IMG/VR virus record: IMGVR_UViG_3300009104_000115
Coordinates: 1 to 25,230 of that record
Length of the DNA: 25,230 bases
Reading direction: 5' to 3' (one strand)
DNA from: a virus
Below, piece after piece: positions 17,839-24,379 of this stretch. The notes under the pieces are model-generated. The model ran no database searches. It worked only from the letters and a program-made list of their open reading frames with translations, and was not told the DNA's origin. The stretch's first letter is position 1. Each line of letters opens with the position of its first letter. The translations under genes were made by a program, and so were the position numbers.

Positions 17839-19086
17839 TTATTTGAATCCTATCATTGGAAATCCTAATTTGGAATAATCTACATTATAAAATCCTTCTG
17901 AATCTATCCCTACTGCATCGGAATAACCAGTATCAAGTAGCTCTTGTGCCATAACTCCGATCCAAGTAGTTTCTGCATCCCACTTATAATTGAAAGAGTA
18001 AATGTTGGGGATTCCAAATCTTTCTCCTTGAAGTAATGTAATATTATCTTTCAATCTAAAATCTGACTTTTTTTGTTTTTCTCTGGCCAGGCGCATAGCA
18101 TCCATACCTTGACTGACATGGGCATGAGGATCTATCGATGCTGGGGTAATATTATATTTTGCTGCTAAACCACTTGTTGCTTGTACTCGAGCACTTTGAG
18201 AATGTGGGCCGTAATTGGGCTTGAGGGCTTGGGAGTGGGGTTCAGTTGCCTGTGTATCAGCAAATTGATCAGAAACAGGATCAGCACTTGTTACATGAAC
18301 GATTTCTTTAAAAGTCAAAGTTAATGTCGAATGAACAGGAGATCCATCTCTATGAAAACTAATAACACTATCGGGATCATGATTAACCATGAATGATGAT
18401 ATTACAGATCGTTGTATTTTTGGTAAATAAGGGTTTTCTCCACCTGAAGTGGGGCCCGATCCGGGCCCTCCACCTAGTTTACCAGCAATAAATTTAATTG
18501 TCCATTGTCTAGGGGAAGCAAAATAAGGGGCCAATAATTTATCCCCAGCTCCAAGCTTACTTTCCACTCTTCTTGGAGTAGAACCATTTTGAAAATCTCC
18601 AATTATTTGTCTCACTTCCTCAGCTTCTGGTGCTGATTTTGGAAAAAACTGAAAAGTAAAAGAATGATCCCAGAATCCTTGTGGGCCTCTGTATGTAAGT
18701 GCAACACGATTATTTGTTGCAAGACCAGATGCAGCTGCTCGAAAATCTCCAAGTTGTTTAATCCTTTTGTCAGCTTGGTTTTCAAGTATAGTTCCTATAT
18801 TCTTCGTTCCTTGTTCAGAAAATATATTCTTTATACCTGCAATTATTCCAGTATCTTCTGTGCCTGTACCTAAAATAGCTCTGGATGTGCCTCCTTCCAA
18901 TTCTTGATAATTTTGTTGTATCGTTGTCGTTAAAGAATTAGGAGGAATATATAATGCAATAGAAGACATTACTTTTGTACTTGCCGCAACAGCACTTCTA
19001 GATTCATATGAAGAAAACAAGATATAATGCTGTCCTTGTTTAACATCATTTCCTATAGATTCGGGATATGCATAATGGTTTGCCAT
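17839..19086 (-). CDS. 48: gp48-like tail-tube cap with C-terminal S74 chaperone domain
   Basis: The protein has 415 residues. The first part of about 300 residues (VMSSIALYIPPNSLTTTIQQ; GPQGFWDHSFTFQFFPKSAP; LTLTFKEIVHVTSAD) resembles gp48 baseplate tail-tube caps, which sit on the hub and start tube growth with gp54. Residues 341-415 are a different module: SDFRLKDN, IYSFNYKW, WIGVMAQEL, AVGIDSEGFYNVDYSKL. This is the peptidase S74/intramolecular chaperone domain of endosialidases and tail spikes, with the Ser341/Lys346 spacing of the self-cleaving dyad. The two parts are joined by a Gly/Ser/Pro- and Gln/His-rich region. The start codon overlaps that of the divergent gp4 gene. There is no Shine-Dalgarno upstream; a late promoter is at 19156-19163. 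Tube-cap identity is good but not certain. Confidence 0.72.
   Translation of the reverse strand: MANHYAYPESIGNDVKQGQHYILFSSYESRSAVAASTKVMSSIALYIPPNSLTTTIQQNYQELEGGTSRAILGTGTEDTGIIAGIKNIFSEQGTKNIGTILENQADKRIKQLGDFRAAASGLATNNRVALTYRGPQGFWDHSFTFQFFPKSAPEAEEVRQIIGDFQNGSTPRRVESKLGAGDKLLAPYFASPRQWTIKFIAGKLGGGPGSGPTSGGENPYLPKIQRSVISSFMVNHDPDSVISFHRDGSPVHSTLTLTFKEIVHVTSADPVSDQFADTQATEPHSQALKPNYGPHSQSARVQATSGLAAKYNITPASIDPHAHVSQGMDAMRLAREKQKKSDFRLKDNITLLQGERFGIPNIYSFNYKWDAETTWIGVMAQELLDTGYSDAVGIDSEGFYNVDYSKLGFPMIGFK
18452..18468. other. GC-rich perfect hairpin inside gp48
   Basis: A 7-bp all-GC stem (GGGCCCG paired with CGGGCCC) with a three-base loop lies within the coding region, where it encodes a Gly-Pro-Gly-Ser-Gly-Pro linker. 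It is striking in AT-rich DNA. There is no U-run after it on either strand, so it does not look like an intrinsic terminator. Confidence 0.6.
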
Positions 19087-19531
19087 GAGAAAACGCTATA
19101 AAGGTAAATTTAAAATTAAAAATTCCGAAAAATACATCGGAGATAGTTCTAATGTTATTTATAGGAGTTTGATGGAACTTAATTTCATGAAATGGTGCGA
19201 TAAAAGTGAAAGGGTTCTCAAATGGAGTAGTGAAGAAGTTATTGTTCCTTACATCTCTCCTATGGACAAAAAGAGACATAGATACTTTCCTGACTTTCTT
19301 ATTCAGACCGATAAAGGATGGACTCTTATAGAAGTTAAACCTCAAGTTCAAACTAAACCTCCAAAAAAACTTCTGGTTGAAAATCTCACTCCCAAAAAGA
19401 AAAGAAGATATGTCCATGCTGTTAAAACTTGGTTGATCAATGAAGCAAAATGGGAAGCCGCAAAAAAGGTATGTGAAGTAAAAGGATGGAGATTTCAAAT
19501 TATGACTGAAAAACAACTACAACCTTCATAA
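19085..19531 (+). CDS. 4: Head completion protein gp4 (PD-(D/E)XK nuclease fold)
   Basis: The protein has 148 residues (T4 gp4 has 150). It aligns by eye with T4 gp4 along its whole length: KYIGDSSNVIYRSLMELNF versus KYRGDPKKITYRSNWEKFF, then VPYISPMDKKRHRYFPDF, LIEVKPQVQTKPPKK, KKRRYVHAVKTWLINEAKW. A TnsA-like PD-(D/E)XK set is visible: E31, P69-D70, and E83-V-K85. In T4, gp4 (also called gp50) acts late in head completion after packaging. It is the first gene of the plus-strand block. Its ATG overlaps the ATG of divergent gp48, an in-frame stop lies just upstream so no earlier start exists, and only a weak GGGAT is present as ribosome site. Confidence 0.92.
   Translation: MRKRYKGKFKIKNSEKYIGDSSNVIYRSLMELNFMKWCDKSERVLKWSSEEVIVPYISPMDKKRHRYFPDFLIQTDKGWTLIEVKPQVQTKPPKKLLVENLTPKKKRRYVHAVKTWLINEAKWEAAKKVCEVKGWRFQIMTEKQLQPS
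19156..19163 (-). promoter_or_regulatory. T4-type late promoter element TATAAATA driving the gp48 block
   Basis: The reverse complement is exactly TATAAATA and faces left, about 70 bases upstream of the gp48 ATG. It lies inside the gp4 coding sequence because the two divergent genes leave no intergenic space. It is the best candidate promoter for the leftward baseplate operon. Confidence 0.6.
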
Positions 19532-19542: not shown

Positions 19543-20139
19543 ATGGCAAGTTTATTAGATAAAGTATCAGATGCGCTTCGTACTGGAACATTTGGAGCAG
19601 AAGTTAAACGGTCTGCACAATGGTTTCAAACGAAAATCAAAGGATTAAAAGGAACGTTGAGGAATCAATGGTCATCGACAAATGCACCAAAATTTTATCG
19701 GGAAGCAGAAACTAAAGTTAATCCGAAAGTTCTGAGATTAAGAGCAAATTTAGGAGATTTGTTTGCGTATTATTACAGACCAAAACATTTGATGACATTA
19801 CCATATTATGATCAGTTTCCTTTAATTATGCTGCTCAAATATGAAAAAGATACATTTTTAGGATTAAATTTTCATTATCTCAATCCCAGATTACGTGCAA
19901 TTCTTTTGGATAGAGTGACAGCTAAAGTAGGACAAGGAATTATCAAGTGGGAAAAAATTGCAAGGATTCCACAAGTTGAACCATGTGTAAAACGATATCG
20001 ATACGATCATATCGTGAGAAAAGTAATTCCGATAGAAGAAAAAGAAAACGAAATTGCAATATTCTTACCATTAGAACGATTTAAGAAAGCATCTAAGTCC
20101 AAAGTGTGGGCAGACAGTAGAAAAAGAATAGGAGCATAA
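19543..20139 (+). CDS. Conserved T4-like phage protein of unknown function (198 aa)
   Basis: I do not know a function. The protein is basic and soluble-looking. Its core, YYRPKHLMTLPYYDQFPLIM followed by FLGLNFHYLNPRLRAILLDR, and the C-terminal CVKRYRYDHIVRKVIPIEEK, IAIFLPLERFKKA...VWADS, form a pattern I recall from an uncharacterised protein of T4-like marine phages. The N-terminal 60 residues are Lys/Arg-rich, with several tryptophans, and may bind nucleic acid or another virion protein. It starts 11 bases after gp4 without a ribosome site and its stop overlaps the next start (TAATG). Position between gp4 and a tube-type protein suggests a virion or head-tail joining role, by context only. 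Confidence 0.75.
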   Translation: MASLLDKVSDALRTGTFGAEVKRSAQWFQTKIKGLKGTLRNQWSSTNAPKFYREAETKVNPKVLRLRANLGDLFAYYYRPKHLMTLPYYDQFPLIMLLKYEKDTFLGLNFHYLNPRLRAILLDRVTAKVGQGIIKWEKIARIPQVEPCVKRYRYDHIVRKVIPIEEKENEIAIFLPLERFKKASKSKVWADSRKRIGA

Positions 20140-20765
20140 TGGCCAGAGACATATCTGCTTTTGCAGCAAGAATTGCACAGGTTGGATTAGCATCCCCAAA
20201 TAAATTTAAAGTAGAATTTTCTAAATTACCATCCGGCATTCAGAAAGAAGCAGATGTACAAACATTAAATATTATGTGTGAAAGTGTCAACCTTGCTGGA
20301 AGAACAATTCAATCTGTACTTGATAGACAATATGGAATTAATAGAGAAGTTCCATATAATGGCCCAACATATCCTCCGCTGACTATTGCTTTTTTATGCT
20401 CAGGAGATTATTTAGAAAAAAAATTATTTGATCGATGGAATGATAAAATAGTTAGTATACAGGATGGATGGGATGTAGAATACTACGACAATTACACAGG
20501 AACGGTATCAGTAACAGCATTAGATAGAGATGGAGTTACAGCAACACATATGCAAACATATCATGAGTGTTGGCCGAAATCAGTTGCATCAATTGAACTT
20601 AATCATTCGACACAAAATTCTGCTCTAAGAATGACTGTGGAAATGGAATATGCTTTTTGGGAAACAGATGATCTTCTGTTAAACCAAACAAGAACATCGG
20701 GGACAAGATTAAAAGGACAAAATTTAAAATCATCTAAGGGGGGACAATTTAACATAGTTGGTTGA
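20139..20765 (+). CDS. Tail-tube-fold protein, probably gp54-like tube initiator
   Basis: The protein has 208 residues. The order of elements fits the tail-tube (gp19/gp54) superfamily: an N-terminal PNKFKVEFSKLP strand, LNIMCESVNLAGRTIQS, a loop REVPYNGPTYPPLTIAFLCS, then LFDRWNDKIV and a final YHECWPKSVASIELNHST with MTVEMEYAFWE. In T4, gp19 forms the tube and gp54 is the baseplate layer on which it starts; the proteins share a fold. Placement next to gp26 and the tape measure favours the gp54 role, but a minor tube protein cannot be excluded. A strong ribosome site AGGAG lies in the end of the upstream gene, whose stop overlaps this ATG. Confidence 0.65.
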   Translation: MARDISAFAARIAQVGLASPNKFKVEFSKLPSGIQKEADVQTLNIMCESVNLAGRTIQSVLDRQYGINREVPYNGPTYPPLTIAFLCSGDYLEKKLFDRWNDKIVSIQDGWDVEYYDNYTGTVSVTALDRDGVTATHMQTYHECWPKSVASIELNHSTQNSALRMTVEMEYAFWETDDLLLNQTRTSGTRLKGQNLKSSKGGQFNIVG

Positions 20766-20797: not shown

Positions 20798-21529
20798 ATG
20801 GCATTACCTAAAATGAACGTTCCAGTTTATGAGGCAATTTTGCCATCGACTGAGAGTGTTATAAAATACCGACCATTTTTGGTCAAAGAAGAAAAAATAT
20901 TATTGACTGCAATGGAGTCAGAAGATGAAAAAACCATTTCTAATGCAGTTAAACAGATTATTAATAATTGTGTTCAAGGAGATCTTGATGTAGACCGATT
21001 ACCTACTTTTGATATCGAATATCTATTTCTCAGACTTCGTGCAAAATCAGTAGGAGAAGAAGTTACTATCGGATTGAAGCCATGGGGCTGTCCTCAAAAT
21101 GATGGAAAACTTTGTGAAAATACAACTGAAGTAAAAGTAAACCTTGAAGAAGTGAAGGTTGAAAAAAATAAAGACCATACCAACAAAATTATGTTGACTG
21201 ATGATATAGGAATAATATTGAGTTACCCAAACATAGAATCTATAAAAAAAACTATGAGTGGAAATATATCAGAAACAGAAGCTGGAATGCAGATAATAAA
21301 AAAATCTGTTGAAATGGTTTTTACACAAGAAGAAACACACGAAAGAGATTCTTTCACAGAAAAAGAATTGGATGATTTTTTCGATAGTTTGAATACGTTA
21401 CAACTGAATAAAATCAGAAATTTCTTTGATACTATGCCCGTATTAAAACATACTGTGAAGTATACTTGTGAAACGTGTGGTGAAGAAAAAGAAACAACGG
21501 TGCAGGGAATTAACTCTTTTTTCGGTTAA
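20798..21529 (+). CDS. 26: Baseplate hub/tail assembly protein gp26
   Basis: The protein has 243 residues (T4 gp26 has 208). The N-terminus PVYEAILPSTESVIKYRPFL then VKEEKILLTAMES is typical of the T4-like gp26 family. Four cysteines, C98, C106, C224 and C227 (CPQNDGKLC and CETCGEE), could bind one metal ion. The C-terminus ends in SFFG, exactly over a slippery heptamer, so a longer product of 305 residues is predicted by -1 frameshifting. In T4, gp26 is needed for hub assembly. Position just before the tape measure matches the tail assembly chaperone slot of other tailed phages. Identity as gp26 is from recalled pattern and context. Confidence 0.82.
   Translation: MALPKMNVPVYEAILPSTESVIKYRPFLVKEEKILLTAMESEDEKTISNAVKQIINNCVQGDLDVDRLPTFDIEYLFLRLRAKSVGEEVTIGLKPWGCPQNDGKLCENTTEVKVNLEEVKVEKNKDHTNKIMLTDDIGIILSYPNIESIKKTMSGNISETEAGMQIIKKSVEMVFTQEETHERDSFTEKELDDFFDSLNTLQLNKIRNFFDTMPVLKHTVKYTCETCGEEKETTVQGINSFFG
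21517..21523 (+). promoter_or_regulatory. Programmed -1 frameshift site (T TTT TTC)
   Basis: In the gp26 frame the codons are TCT TTT TTC GGT TAA, so bases 21517-21523 form the heptamer T TTT TTC in the X XXY YYZ phase needed for tandem -1 slippage. The -1 frame is closed by a stop at 21511-21513 and opens only over this point, then stays open to 21714. The slip would occur two codons before the gp26 stop. Weak stems follow (GAGT/ACTC at 21534-21545). Confidence 0.75.
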
Positions 21530-21714
21530 GCCTGAGTCATAACTCGCTCGAGAATTATTACTTGAGTAACTTTGCAATGATACAACATCACAAGTGGAGT
21601 TTGACCGAAATCGAGGATATGATGCCCTACGAAAGAGATATTTATACAACCTTACTAAGTAATTGGGTTGAAGAAGAAAATGAAAAATTGCGACAACAAC
21701 AGACAAGTCACTAA
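21523..21714 (+). CDS. 51: gp51-like extension, made as gp26 -1 frameshift fusion
   Basis: After slippage, 18 codons (RLSLSHNSLENYYLSNFA) lead into the ATG at 21577 and a further 45 residues beginning MIQHHKWSLTEIEDMMPYE and containing RDIYTTLLSNWVEEE, ending at TAA 21712-21714. The helix-rich, acidic character and the motif KWSLTEIEDMMPYERDIY are what I associate with gp51-type hub assembly factors and with the downstream half of tail assembly chaperones. The ATG at 21577 has no ribosome site, and the codons before it read as protein in the same frame, so the fusion is favoured over independent translation. The full fusion, from 20798, would have 305 residues. It ends inside the tape measure ribosome site. 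Confidence 0.7.
   Translation, partial: RLSLSHNSLENYYLSNFAMIQHHKWSLTEIEDMMPYERDIYTTLLSNWVEEENEKLRQQQTSH
21534..21545 (+). other. Possible stimulatory stem after the slippery site
   Basis: GAGT pairs with ACTC across a four-base loop, starting 10 bases after the slippery heptamer. An alternative pairing of ACTC with a second GAGT at 21564-21567 exists. The stems are short and the structure is weak, so its role as a frameshift stimulator is uncertain. Confidence 0.25.
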
Positions 21715-21724
21715 GGAAACATAA

Positions 21725-24379
21725 ATGGCTGATTCAAAAAATGCTTTTGCCGCTATAGCAAAAGACCCCCACGCTTCTTGGAATATAAACCGCAAGACAG
21801 TACTGAATACAATTAGTAAGAGCACAGCCGTAGAGTTCAAGAACAATGTTCTTAAAAAATATACAGACAAAGATTTAAAACAGAAAAAATCAAGAGCATA
21901 TGATGCTGTCATAGGTGACATTAAATCTGCCTTAAACCTTCCAAAAGAACCAGCTCGTGAAGATTTTATTAGAGCAACAAAAAAGATAGAAGAAGTTCAA
22001 AAAGTTTTAGAGGATGCATTAAAAGAAAAAGATGTGGTGCTTGATAGAGTTCTCATTGATCAACTTTTGGATTTTGTTCAACTTGCTGCTACAGCATTAG
22101 ACGAAGGTACTCCATTCTTAGGAACAGCAGCATTTAAAACTGTTAAGGATAAAGCAAAAGCAACTGGAACAAATATTGCCAGTGGATTGGTTTCGCAATT
22201 AACTCAAGGTATTCCTTTTGCACCAGAAATGATAAATTTCGCTGGTGCTAAAATCAAAAGTGCTCTTGGTGGTGGAGGAGCTTCTTCTTCAGCAAAAGAG
22301 ATGGCATCCTTATTAAAAGGAGCTAGTGATGATGGTGGAAATGGTGATGCAGAAGATTTTGGTGGTGCAATTGATACAGTAGAAAAAGCAAAAGAAGAAA
22401 TACTAGGAGGAACATCCACAGGTGGTGGTGCTGCTGGAGGAGGACTTGAATTTACCAATGAATTGTTAATTAGTATAGAAGACCATCTTGACTTCATTCG
22501 TAAGAATACTGAAACCGCAGAAACAAGAAGAGAAGATAAAAGGAAGAAAGATGCACAACAAATAGCTGCAATAAAAAAGATGGGAGGAGCAGGTGCTGCT
22601 GGTCTGGCTGGTGCTGGTGCTGCTGGTGCTGCTGCTGAAGGATTAGATTGGATGGATCTTTTGATCTTTGATAGAGCTAAAAGTTTTTTTGATAAAAAAG
22701 GACTAATTCCTAAATTTTTTGGTGGTGGCGCAGGAAAAGCACCTTTCCCCGGCGGGCCAGGATTTGGTGGTGTAAAACCAACTTTAGGTAAAGGAGTACT
22801 TTCTCGACTTGCAATCGTACCTCATTTAGCAAGATTAGGCCCGTTGCTTTTGAATCCGTGGGTTCTCGGGGCAGTAGCAGTAGGTGGTTTGGCATGGTGG
22901 TTACTCTCTGGTGATGATGATGATGAAAAACCCCCAGCGAGGAAAAAGACAAAAAGTAAAACACCCACAACAAATGCTTGGGGTGAAAGTATCAGTAGAA
23001 AGGGTTTACCAGAACATGAAGAAGGTGTAACTGATGTCAAAGAAACCCATATTGCAAAAATACACAAAGGAGAAACAGTATTAGATAATAAAGCTGCAAA
23101 GGATTTTAAAACTGGTCTAGAAACACTTAAATATCTTCAGCAAAATCTTGGTGTTCAATTGATGCCATTAGTAGAAATAATGGGACACTCAGTTGAAGAA
23201 CTAAAAAAACAAGGATATAAAGGAACTCTGGTAGTTCCTGACAGATCTCAGGAAGCTTTGATAGATCTTGGTTATATCGGAGATACTTGGGAAGACAGTA
23301 AATGGGCAAAAGGTTTAGATGAATTATTCGAGCACTTTATACAAGTAGATACTGAAACCGCTTTTCATCGTATAGCAGGTGTGAAATCCTTTCAAGAATC
23401 TATTTTGCAGCCCAGAATTGAAGCAATGTCGGAAGCACAGAATAAAAAACCGATGAGTGAGAAAGTGAGAAAAAGTTTTGAAAAAGGAGGTATAGGTGGA
23501 TTGGGTCACGTAGGAGCAAAAGCAGACTCCCTTGCGGAAGCATTATATGCACTTGGTCTTGATTGGCAGGCTAGTGAAAAACGGATTACAAAAACAGGGG
23601 AAGGTTTCGCATCTGACGGATTACTTCAAAAAGGTGGACAATTTTTGCCTGGTTTATCGATACGTAAGGAAGGAACTCACAAAGTAGATCTCTTTGGGCG
23701 GACTGAAAATCCATTACATAAAGTCAGACAAACAATGGAAAATATGAGTGTGTCTCAACTGGTACAATTGCAAGGATCAGTAAAAAAATATATGCTTTTA
23801 AGAGAAGCTCTTCAAATTGCTAACGGCACACTTGAAGCAGCATACTCAATATGGGGGGCAGGAGATATAGTTACAGGGCCAGATAAAGATATTTTCAGGA
23901 CTGAATTCCGCCAACATGACCAGCCTAACAGGGGCATCGGAATGTCATCATGGAACAAATTAATCGCAAAGGGCACAGGTTTGGGAATGGTAGAACGTAT
24001 AAGACCTCTATTAGCAGCAGCAAGTGCTGAAGTCCAAAACTTAGTTGGTGGAAAAGCGTTTTACAAACCTACTGATCAATCCGTCTACGATGCTAGAAAT
24101 CGAATTTCTGGTAAATACGGCATGGGAGTTGCAAAGGGAGGACTTGGATTATTACATAAAGGTGAAGAAGTATTAGAAGCAGCAGAAGTTGCTGCGATTG
24201 GAGCTGCGTTAAATAATGCAGCAAAGAATAGAATTGGTATAGATAGGTCTGGTGGAGGCGGATCTCCTAATGTGATTGATACAAGTAGTACTCAGGTAGT
24301 TAATAATACCACCATCATTCCACCAATTGAACCTAATGGCCCGGCATTACCATTTGGATATGCAAATGCTCGGGTATAA
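21725..24379 (+). CDS. Tail tape measure protein
   Basis: The protein has 884 residues and is the longest gene of the plus block, directly after the gp26/gp51 chaperone pair, with ribosome site AAGGA overlapping the gp51 stop. Residues 1-150 are helical. Gly/Ala/Ser-rich low-complexity segments lie at about 165-250 and 285-350. One hydrophobic segment (about 372-396, LLLNPWVLGAVAVGGLAWWL) could span a membrane, a common feature of tape measures ejected with the DNA. The motif HKGExVL occurs twice (near 447 and 811) and the C-terminus ends NNTTIIPPIEPNGPALPFGY, a type of ending I recall from marine T4-like tape measures. The protein would fill the tube lumen and set its length; T4 gp29 (590 residues) is the functional counterpart. 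Confidence 0.82.
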   Translation: MADSKNAFAAIAKDPHASWNINRKTVLNTISKSTAVEFKNNVLKKYTDKDLKQKKSRAYDAVIGDIKSALNLPKEPAREDFIRATKKIEEVQKVLEDALKEKDVVLDRVLIDQLLDFVQLAATALDEGTPFLGTAAFKTVKDKAKATGTNIASGLVSQLTQGIPFAPEMINFAGAKIKSALGGGGASSSAKEMASLLKGASDDGGNGDAEDFGGAIDTVEKAKEEILGGTSTGGGAAGGGLEFTNELLISIEDHLDFIRKNTETAETRREDKRKKDAQQIAAIKKMGGAGAAGLAGAGAAGAAAEGLDWMDLLIFDRAKSFFDKKGLIPKFFGGGAGKAPFPGGPGFGGVKPTLGKGVLSRLAIVPHLARLGPLLLNPWVLGAVAVGGLAWWLLSGDDDDEKPPARKKTKSKTPTTNAWGESISRKGLPEHEEGVTDVKETHIAKIHKGETVLDNKAAKDFKTGLETLKYLQQNLGVQLMPLVEIMGHSVEELKKQGYKGTLVVPDRSQEALIDLGYIGDTWEDSKWAKGLDELFEHFIQVDTETAFHRIAGVKSFQESILQPRIEAMSEAQNKKPMSEKVRKSFEKGGIGGLGHVGAKADSLAEALYALGLDWQASEKRITKTGEGFASDGLLQKGGQFLPGLSIRKEGTHKVDLFGRTENPLHKVRQTMENMSVSQLVQLQGSVKKYMLLREALQIANGTLEAAYSIWGAGDIVTGPDKDIFRTEFRQHDQPNRGIGMSSWNKLIAKGTGLGMVERIRPLLAAASAEVQNLVGGKAFYKPTDQSVYDARNRISGKYGMGVAKGGLGLLHKGEEVLEAAEVAAIGAALNNAAKNRIGIDRSGGGGSPNVIDTSSTQVVNNTTIIPPIEPNGPALPFGYANARV

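Follow-up and report, generated by a model that had tools for sequence, protein, structure and literature searches.

Is the short gp51-like frame that follows the gp26-like gene of T4-like phages a gene in its own right, or the end of gp26 read in another frame? The question arises from a 25,230-base contig of an uncultured T4-like virus (the window, meaning here the whole stretch of DNA analyzed), for which a sequence-only reading had proposed that gp26 and gp51 are a frameshifted chaperone pair. We put the probability at about 0.93 that the locus is a T4-like tail assembly chaperone (TAC) gene whose long form is made by a -1 slip at T TTT TTC. This assignment is based on sequence, phase, conservation, the coding signal of the -1 frame and fold resemblance.

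The gp26/gp51 junction in the window

The two frames lie on the + strand between a tail tube-like ORF (20139-20765, phrog_45) and an ORF of 884 aa (21725-24379) in the tape-measure position, both also on the + strand, which is the gene order of tail assembly chaperones. The large ORF is named by synteny (its equivalent is annotated as tape measure in Cr30 and is similar to tape measure in phiM12); searches of the Pfam and PHROG families gave no significant match for it. A DNA end protector-like gene (19543-20139, + strand) precedes the tail tube-like ORF. Adjoining this gene is a small ORF (19085-19531) with a TnsA-like endonuclease N-terminal domain (PF08722, E 1e-20), which also resembles phage endonuclease I.

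The gp26-like gene (20798-21529, 243 aa) is homologous to gp26 by its matches to PF12322 (T4_baseplate, E 2.5e-62) and phrog_150 (E 3e-66), the latter reaching across the -1 tail, and the extension in the -1 frame (21523-21714, + strand, 63 aa) is gp51-like by its match to phrog_634 (E 5e-28). A Pfam NMT match (E 0.028) to the -1 tail fell below the cut-off and was taken as chance. The AlphaFold2 model of gp26 has a mean pLDDT of 85. Its residues 1-95 are best matched (VIA-align) by 3FGX (Z 7.9), 2OB9 (HK97 gp13, Z 7.5) and 3KLU (YqbN, Z 7.2), with rmsd 3.9-4.3 over 83-85 residues and a sequence identity of 6-16%, and the best clearly unrelated structure reached Z 3.9. All three are described as phage tail assembly chaperones (PMC9603447), so the model points, with moderate confidence, to a TAC fold in the N domain. 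Foldseek alone against the PDB gave nothing significant with the gp26 model (E about 1), and a PDB sequence search with the gp26 and extension profiles gave no match. The extension is modeled as three helices (pLDDT 81).

The 3' end of gp26 reads AAC TCT TTT TTC GGT TAA, with the stop at 21527-21529. As the sequence-only reading had it, T TTT TTC (21517-21523) is exactly in X_XXY_YYZ phase, two codons 5' of this stop, and the -1 frame, blocked on the 5' side, is open thereafter: it has a TAA at 21511-21513, is open from 21514 to 21711 and ends at the next TAA (21712-21714). The exact point of opening, three codons 5' of the slip site in the contig, is uninformative because this distance varies from 2 to 21 codons in relatives. 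By computed translation, a slip would give a predicted fusion (TAC-NC) of 242 + 63 = 305 aa with the junction peptide ...INSFFRLSLSHN...; post-slip residues 1-18, RLSLSHNSLENYYLSNFA, come before the ATG at 21577, from which gene callers would call gp51 (21577-21714, + strand).

We infer slippage in vivo and its level as follows. Most ribosomes would stop at TAA 21527-21529 and give TAC-N (gp26), and a minority would slip back one base on the heptamer to give the long form with its helical C-terminal domain, the slip being probably aided by an upstream Shine-Dalgarno (SD)-like element that pairs with the ribosome. By analogy with lambda G/GT, the products would act as chaperones: TAC-N would coat the tape measure protein, and tail tube subunits would be recruited by the C domain.

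Conservation of the heptamer and of the -1 frame

Searches of viral contigs, together with individual phage records, yielded 333 loci with homology to both gp26 and gp51, represented by 189 non-redundant junctions. Of these 189, 187 have T TTT TTN in phase and carry gp51 in the -1 frame. One exception (L103) has G TTT TTC instead; GTTTTT is a reported -1 signal in other myophages (PMC12846349). The other (L261) is only an apparent exception, since it has T TTT TTC and its gp26 frame is broken upstream. Elsewhere in the gp26 set, an in-phase TTTTTT occurs at only 23 of 14,702 other codon positions. The codon 5' of TTT encodes Ser, Asp, Asn, Ala, Thr or Gly, with T as its third base every time. 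Over 62 clusters, log10 p was -14.6 for this third-base T and -6.7 for TTT as the first Phe codon, values that assume independence and are too strong because the relatives share ancestry; the picture was the same with 61 coarse groups. The gp26 stop lies 0-8 codons 3' of the heptamer among relatives, so that the junction is anchored by the heptamer and not by the stop.

The heptamer is present in Kyanoviridae (S-PM2, ACG-2014e), in Straboviridae (KVP40, nt-1, CC2, LPCS28, PX29) and also in Mendera, Astolliot, RL2RES, IC12, phiM12, Cr30, Melnitz, BUCT-ZZ01 and ACP17. Alignment of the junction across relatives, from Kyanoviridae to phages of Methylophilales, found it conserved together with the pre-ATG part of the -1 frame, which is kept in Kyanoviridae, in several Straboviridae outside T4's own group and in alphaproteobacterial, Stenotrophomonas, Pseudomonas, Acidovorax and Methylophilales phages. 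No natural in-frame gp26-gp51 fusion was found among the 189 representatives.

The 18 codons before the ATG, which had been described as protein-like from the letters alone, do behave as coding sequence. The extension is matched by 564 phage records, mostly from its first or second residue, and columns 1-18 of the alignment are conserved, Phe17 without exception and Leu9 almost so. Of the 745 pairwise differences that 13 close relatives show in this part, 484 fall at third positions of the -1 frame. The locus shares with other tail assembly chaperones a conserved C-terminal domain that is encoded in the -1 frame and can be read on from the slip site. The internal ATG had been said to have no ribosome site; its initiation signal is indeed poor, but it is weak rather than nil, with an SD energy of -2.2 kcal/mol, compared to -5.6 for gp26 and -6.0 for the gene in the tape-measure position. 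In many relatives, the internal Met is replaced by Leu or displaced by one residue. Judged from the sequence, ATG 21577 is unlikely to be the main start.

Signals around the slip site and alternative explanations

In most sequences GGAGG, GAGGG, AAGGA or something similar ends 8-10 nt 5' of the heptamer (GGAGG at 10, GAGGG at 9 and AAGGA at 8 nt). In the window, the candidate stimulator is CAGGGA (21503-21508, + strand), with AGGGA 8 nt before the heptamer and 9 nt before its first in-frame TTT. SD stimulators of -1 shifting have a spacing of 9-14 nt (PMC5009743), and the distances found here, like those of dnaX-type signals, match this range, depending on how the bases are counted. Predicted pairing with the anti-SD averaged -6.15 against -4.49 (sd 0.10) in a synonymous-codon null for 187 sequences, and -5.75 against -4.28 (sd 0.19) for the 61 coarse groups; no null draw reached the observed mean. 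Codon choice goes in the same direction: at codon -4, 79 of 123 Glu are encoded by GAG, compared to 22% over the whole gene, and at codon -3 GGG accounts for 36 of 182 Gly, compared to 6.5%. As a frameshift stimulator the element is a statistical finding, and its pairing with the ribosome probably helps the slip.

Consensus folding detected no conserved downstream RNA structure in the family, a hairpin of the dnaX type included, and the window's own downstream fold was not significant (z -1.45). A downstream structure as a conserved stimulator was therefore rejected, the folds of single sequences being lineage-specific. Strong hairpins just 3' of the heptamer were seen in S-PM2 (L002:1502-1578, z -3.5) and in L021 (L021:1138-1214, z -3.8), and these are possible lineage-specific stimulators.

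Programmed frameshifting has to be weighed against other ways of expressing or explaining the locus, all the more as U_UUU_UUA and U_UUU_UUU slip less than A_AAA_AAG in E. coli (PMC5009743), which counts against it. Ribosomes could instead stop at the end of gp26 and re-initiate on gp51, giving a free small protein and no fusion. This kind of coupling gains from the relatives in which an ATG overlaps the gp26 stop (17 of 189, about 9%) and from the TAATG or TAATT, without heptamer, of Ackermannviridae-like phages, and SD sequences before gene ends may serve it (PMC5009743). However, the window has TAAGC, the first ATG of the -1 frame comes about 47 nt past the stop with its weak SD, and the SD-like element is about 68 nt 5' of that ATG; moreover, the near-invariant heptamer and a -1 frame conserved from immediately after the slip would be left unexplained. 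We consider coupling very improbable as the explanation of this locus, and re-initiation may add free TAC-C in the relatives with a stop-overlapping ATG.

It would take even more to attribute the fusion to RNA polymerase slipping on the T6 run, with the same protein arising from mixed mRNAs. The homopolymer is there, but six T are short for transcriptional slippage, the relatives hold codon phase and the X_XXY_YYZ pattern, and TTTTTTC, TTTTTTT, TTTTTTA and TTTTTTG are all tolerated, one relative even having G TTTTTC; the probability that we give to it is minimal. That gp26 and gp51 are two unlinked genes, the poly-T being due to chance and Phe-Phe being needed by the protein alone, is scarcely credible. 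Both Phe are kept in gp26, in T4 as well, and elsewhere in the genes of the gp26 set TTT makes up 78% of the Phe codons; yet the varying preceding codon has a third-base T in 187 of 187, TTT is kept as first Phe codon, and the other FF sites of gp26 are T TTT TTN in just 11 of 85. Translational frameshifting at T TTT TTC is thus the reading that we retain, and the proposal of a frameshifted chaperone pair finds support in the 187 junctions, the -1 coding signal and the TAC fold.

Other expression modes and known systems

Relatives in which gp51 has a start of its own and the heptamer is lost, a pattern which the sequence-only reading had named as speaking against it, are confined to Ackermannviridae-like phages and, in another form, T4. 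The gp26 of T4 is homologous to that of the window (hhalign E 6e-17, probability 99), and the N-terminal part of T4 gp51 is paralogous to gp26 (BLASTP 2e-6), its C-terminal 38 residues having a weak likeness to the -1 tail (hhalign E 4e-4, probability 34%). In T4 gene 26 (L167:3803-4429), the C-terminal Phe-Phe is kept as TTC TTT and the heptamer is gone. It looks as if T4 encodes the short and long chaperone forms as two genes, its slip site having decayed, so it would seem, after the separate long form (gene 51) took over. The two-gene reading is in line with a passage of PMC10885494, in which Vladimirov et al. 2022 is cited for some T4-like phages encoding short and long forms as separate genes.

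In the Ackermannviridae-like SD25, YC, D510, K355, Coodle, dinky and XDRKpn-1 (gp26 3' ends of L171, L173, L176, L180, L181, L182 and L185), the heptamer is absent and the SD-like element is weak. The gp26 stop reads TAATG or TAATT, and behind it, in the -1 frame, comes a short TAC-C-like ORF, an arrangement that suggests stop-start coupling, possibly with an AUU start in dinky and XDRKpn-1. A broader view would be that what drives the chaperone frameshift is an SD-like stimulator upstream, under codon-level selection of its own, and not downstream RNA structure, with at least three expression modes in the gene family: frameshift, duplicated separate genes in T4, and heptamer-less coupling in the Ackermannviridae-like phages, where SD-like element and heptamer were lost together. 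We hold this view tentatively, at a little under even odds.

Annotations of marine T4-like phages commonly list gp51 as a gene of its own, a "baseplate hub assembly catalyst", or omit it, and the records of relatives viewed here flagged no joined CDS, the frames being annotated as separate genes or the second one missing. By the evidence, gp51 forms the C-terminal end of a chaperone made by frameshifting, and thus these annotations should be joined. The diverged gp26/gp51 junctions are also a clean panel in which to ask which upstream signals determine the level of -1 shifting.

Like E. coli dnaX (PMC5600365), the junction has a homopolymeric heptamer preceded by an SD-like element. Unlike the gp26/gp51 family, in which no hairpin is conserved, dnaX has a downstream hairpin too. 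HK97 gp13, YqbN and Rbstp2171 (2OB9, 3KLU, 3FGX) have the best structural likeness to residues 1-95 of gp26, which has some 150 further residues. Compared with lambda G/GT, the slippery sequence and the protein sequences differ, and the C-terminal extension is only 63 aa here. Vladimirov, Gautam & Davidson 2022 (Virology 566:9-15) reportedly identified the chaperone genes of T4-like phages, and frameshifting is reported to be conserved in several T4-like groups, T4's own group having separate genes 26 and 51. The genes are the same gp26/gp51 described here, and a passage of PMC12846349 credits Vladimirov et al. 2022 with poly-T signals for -1 frameshifting in the TAC-N genes of T4-like phages. 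The mechanism is therefore the known chaperone frameshift of tailed phages, with its T4-like assignment published in 2022, and the finding is correct and already known; possible additions to that work are the scale of the conservation, the SD-like element and this contig, and the Ackermannviridae variant without heptamer is a possible further addition.
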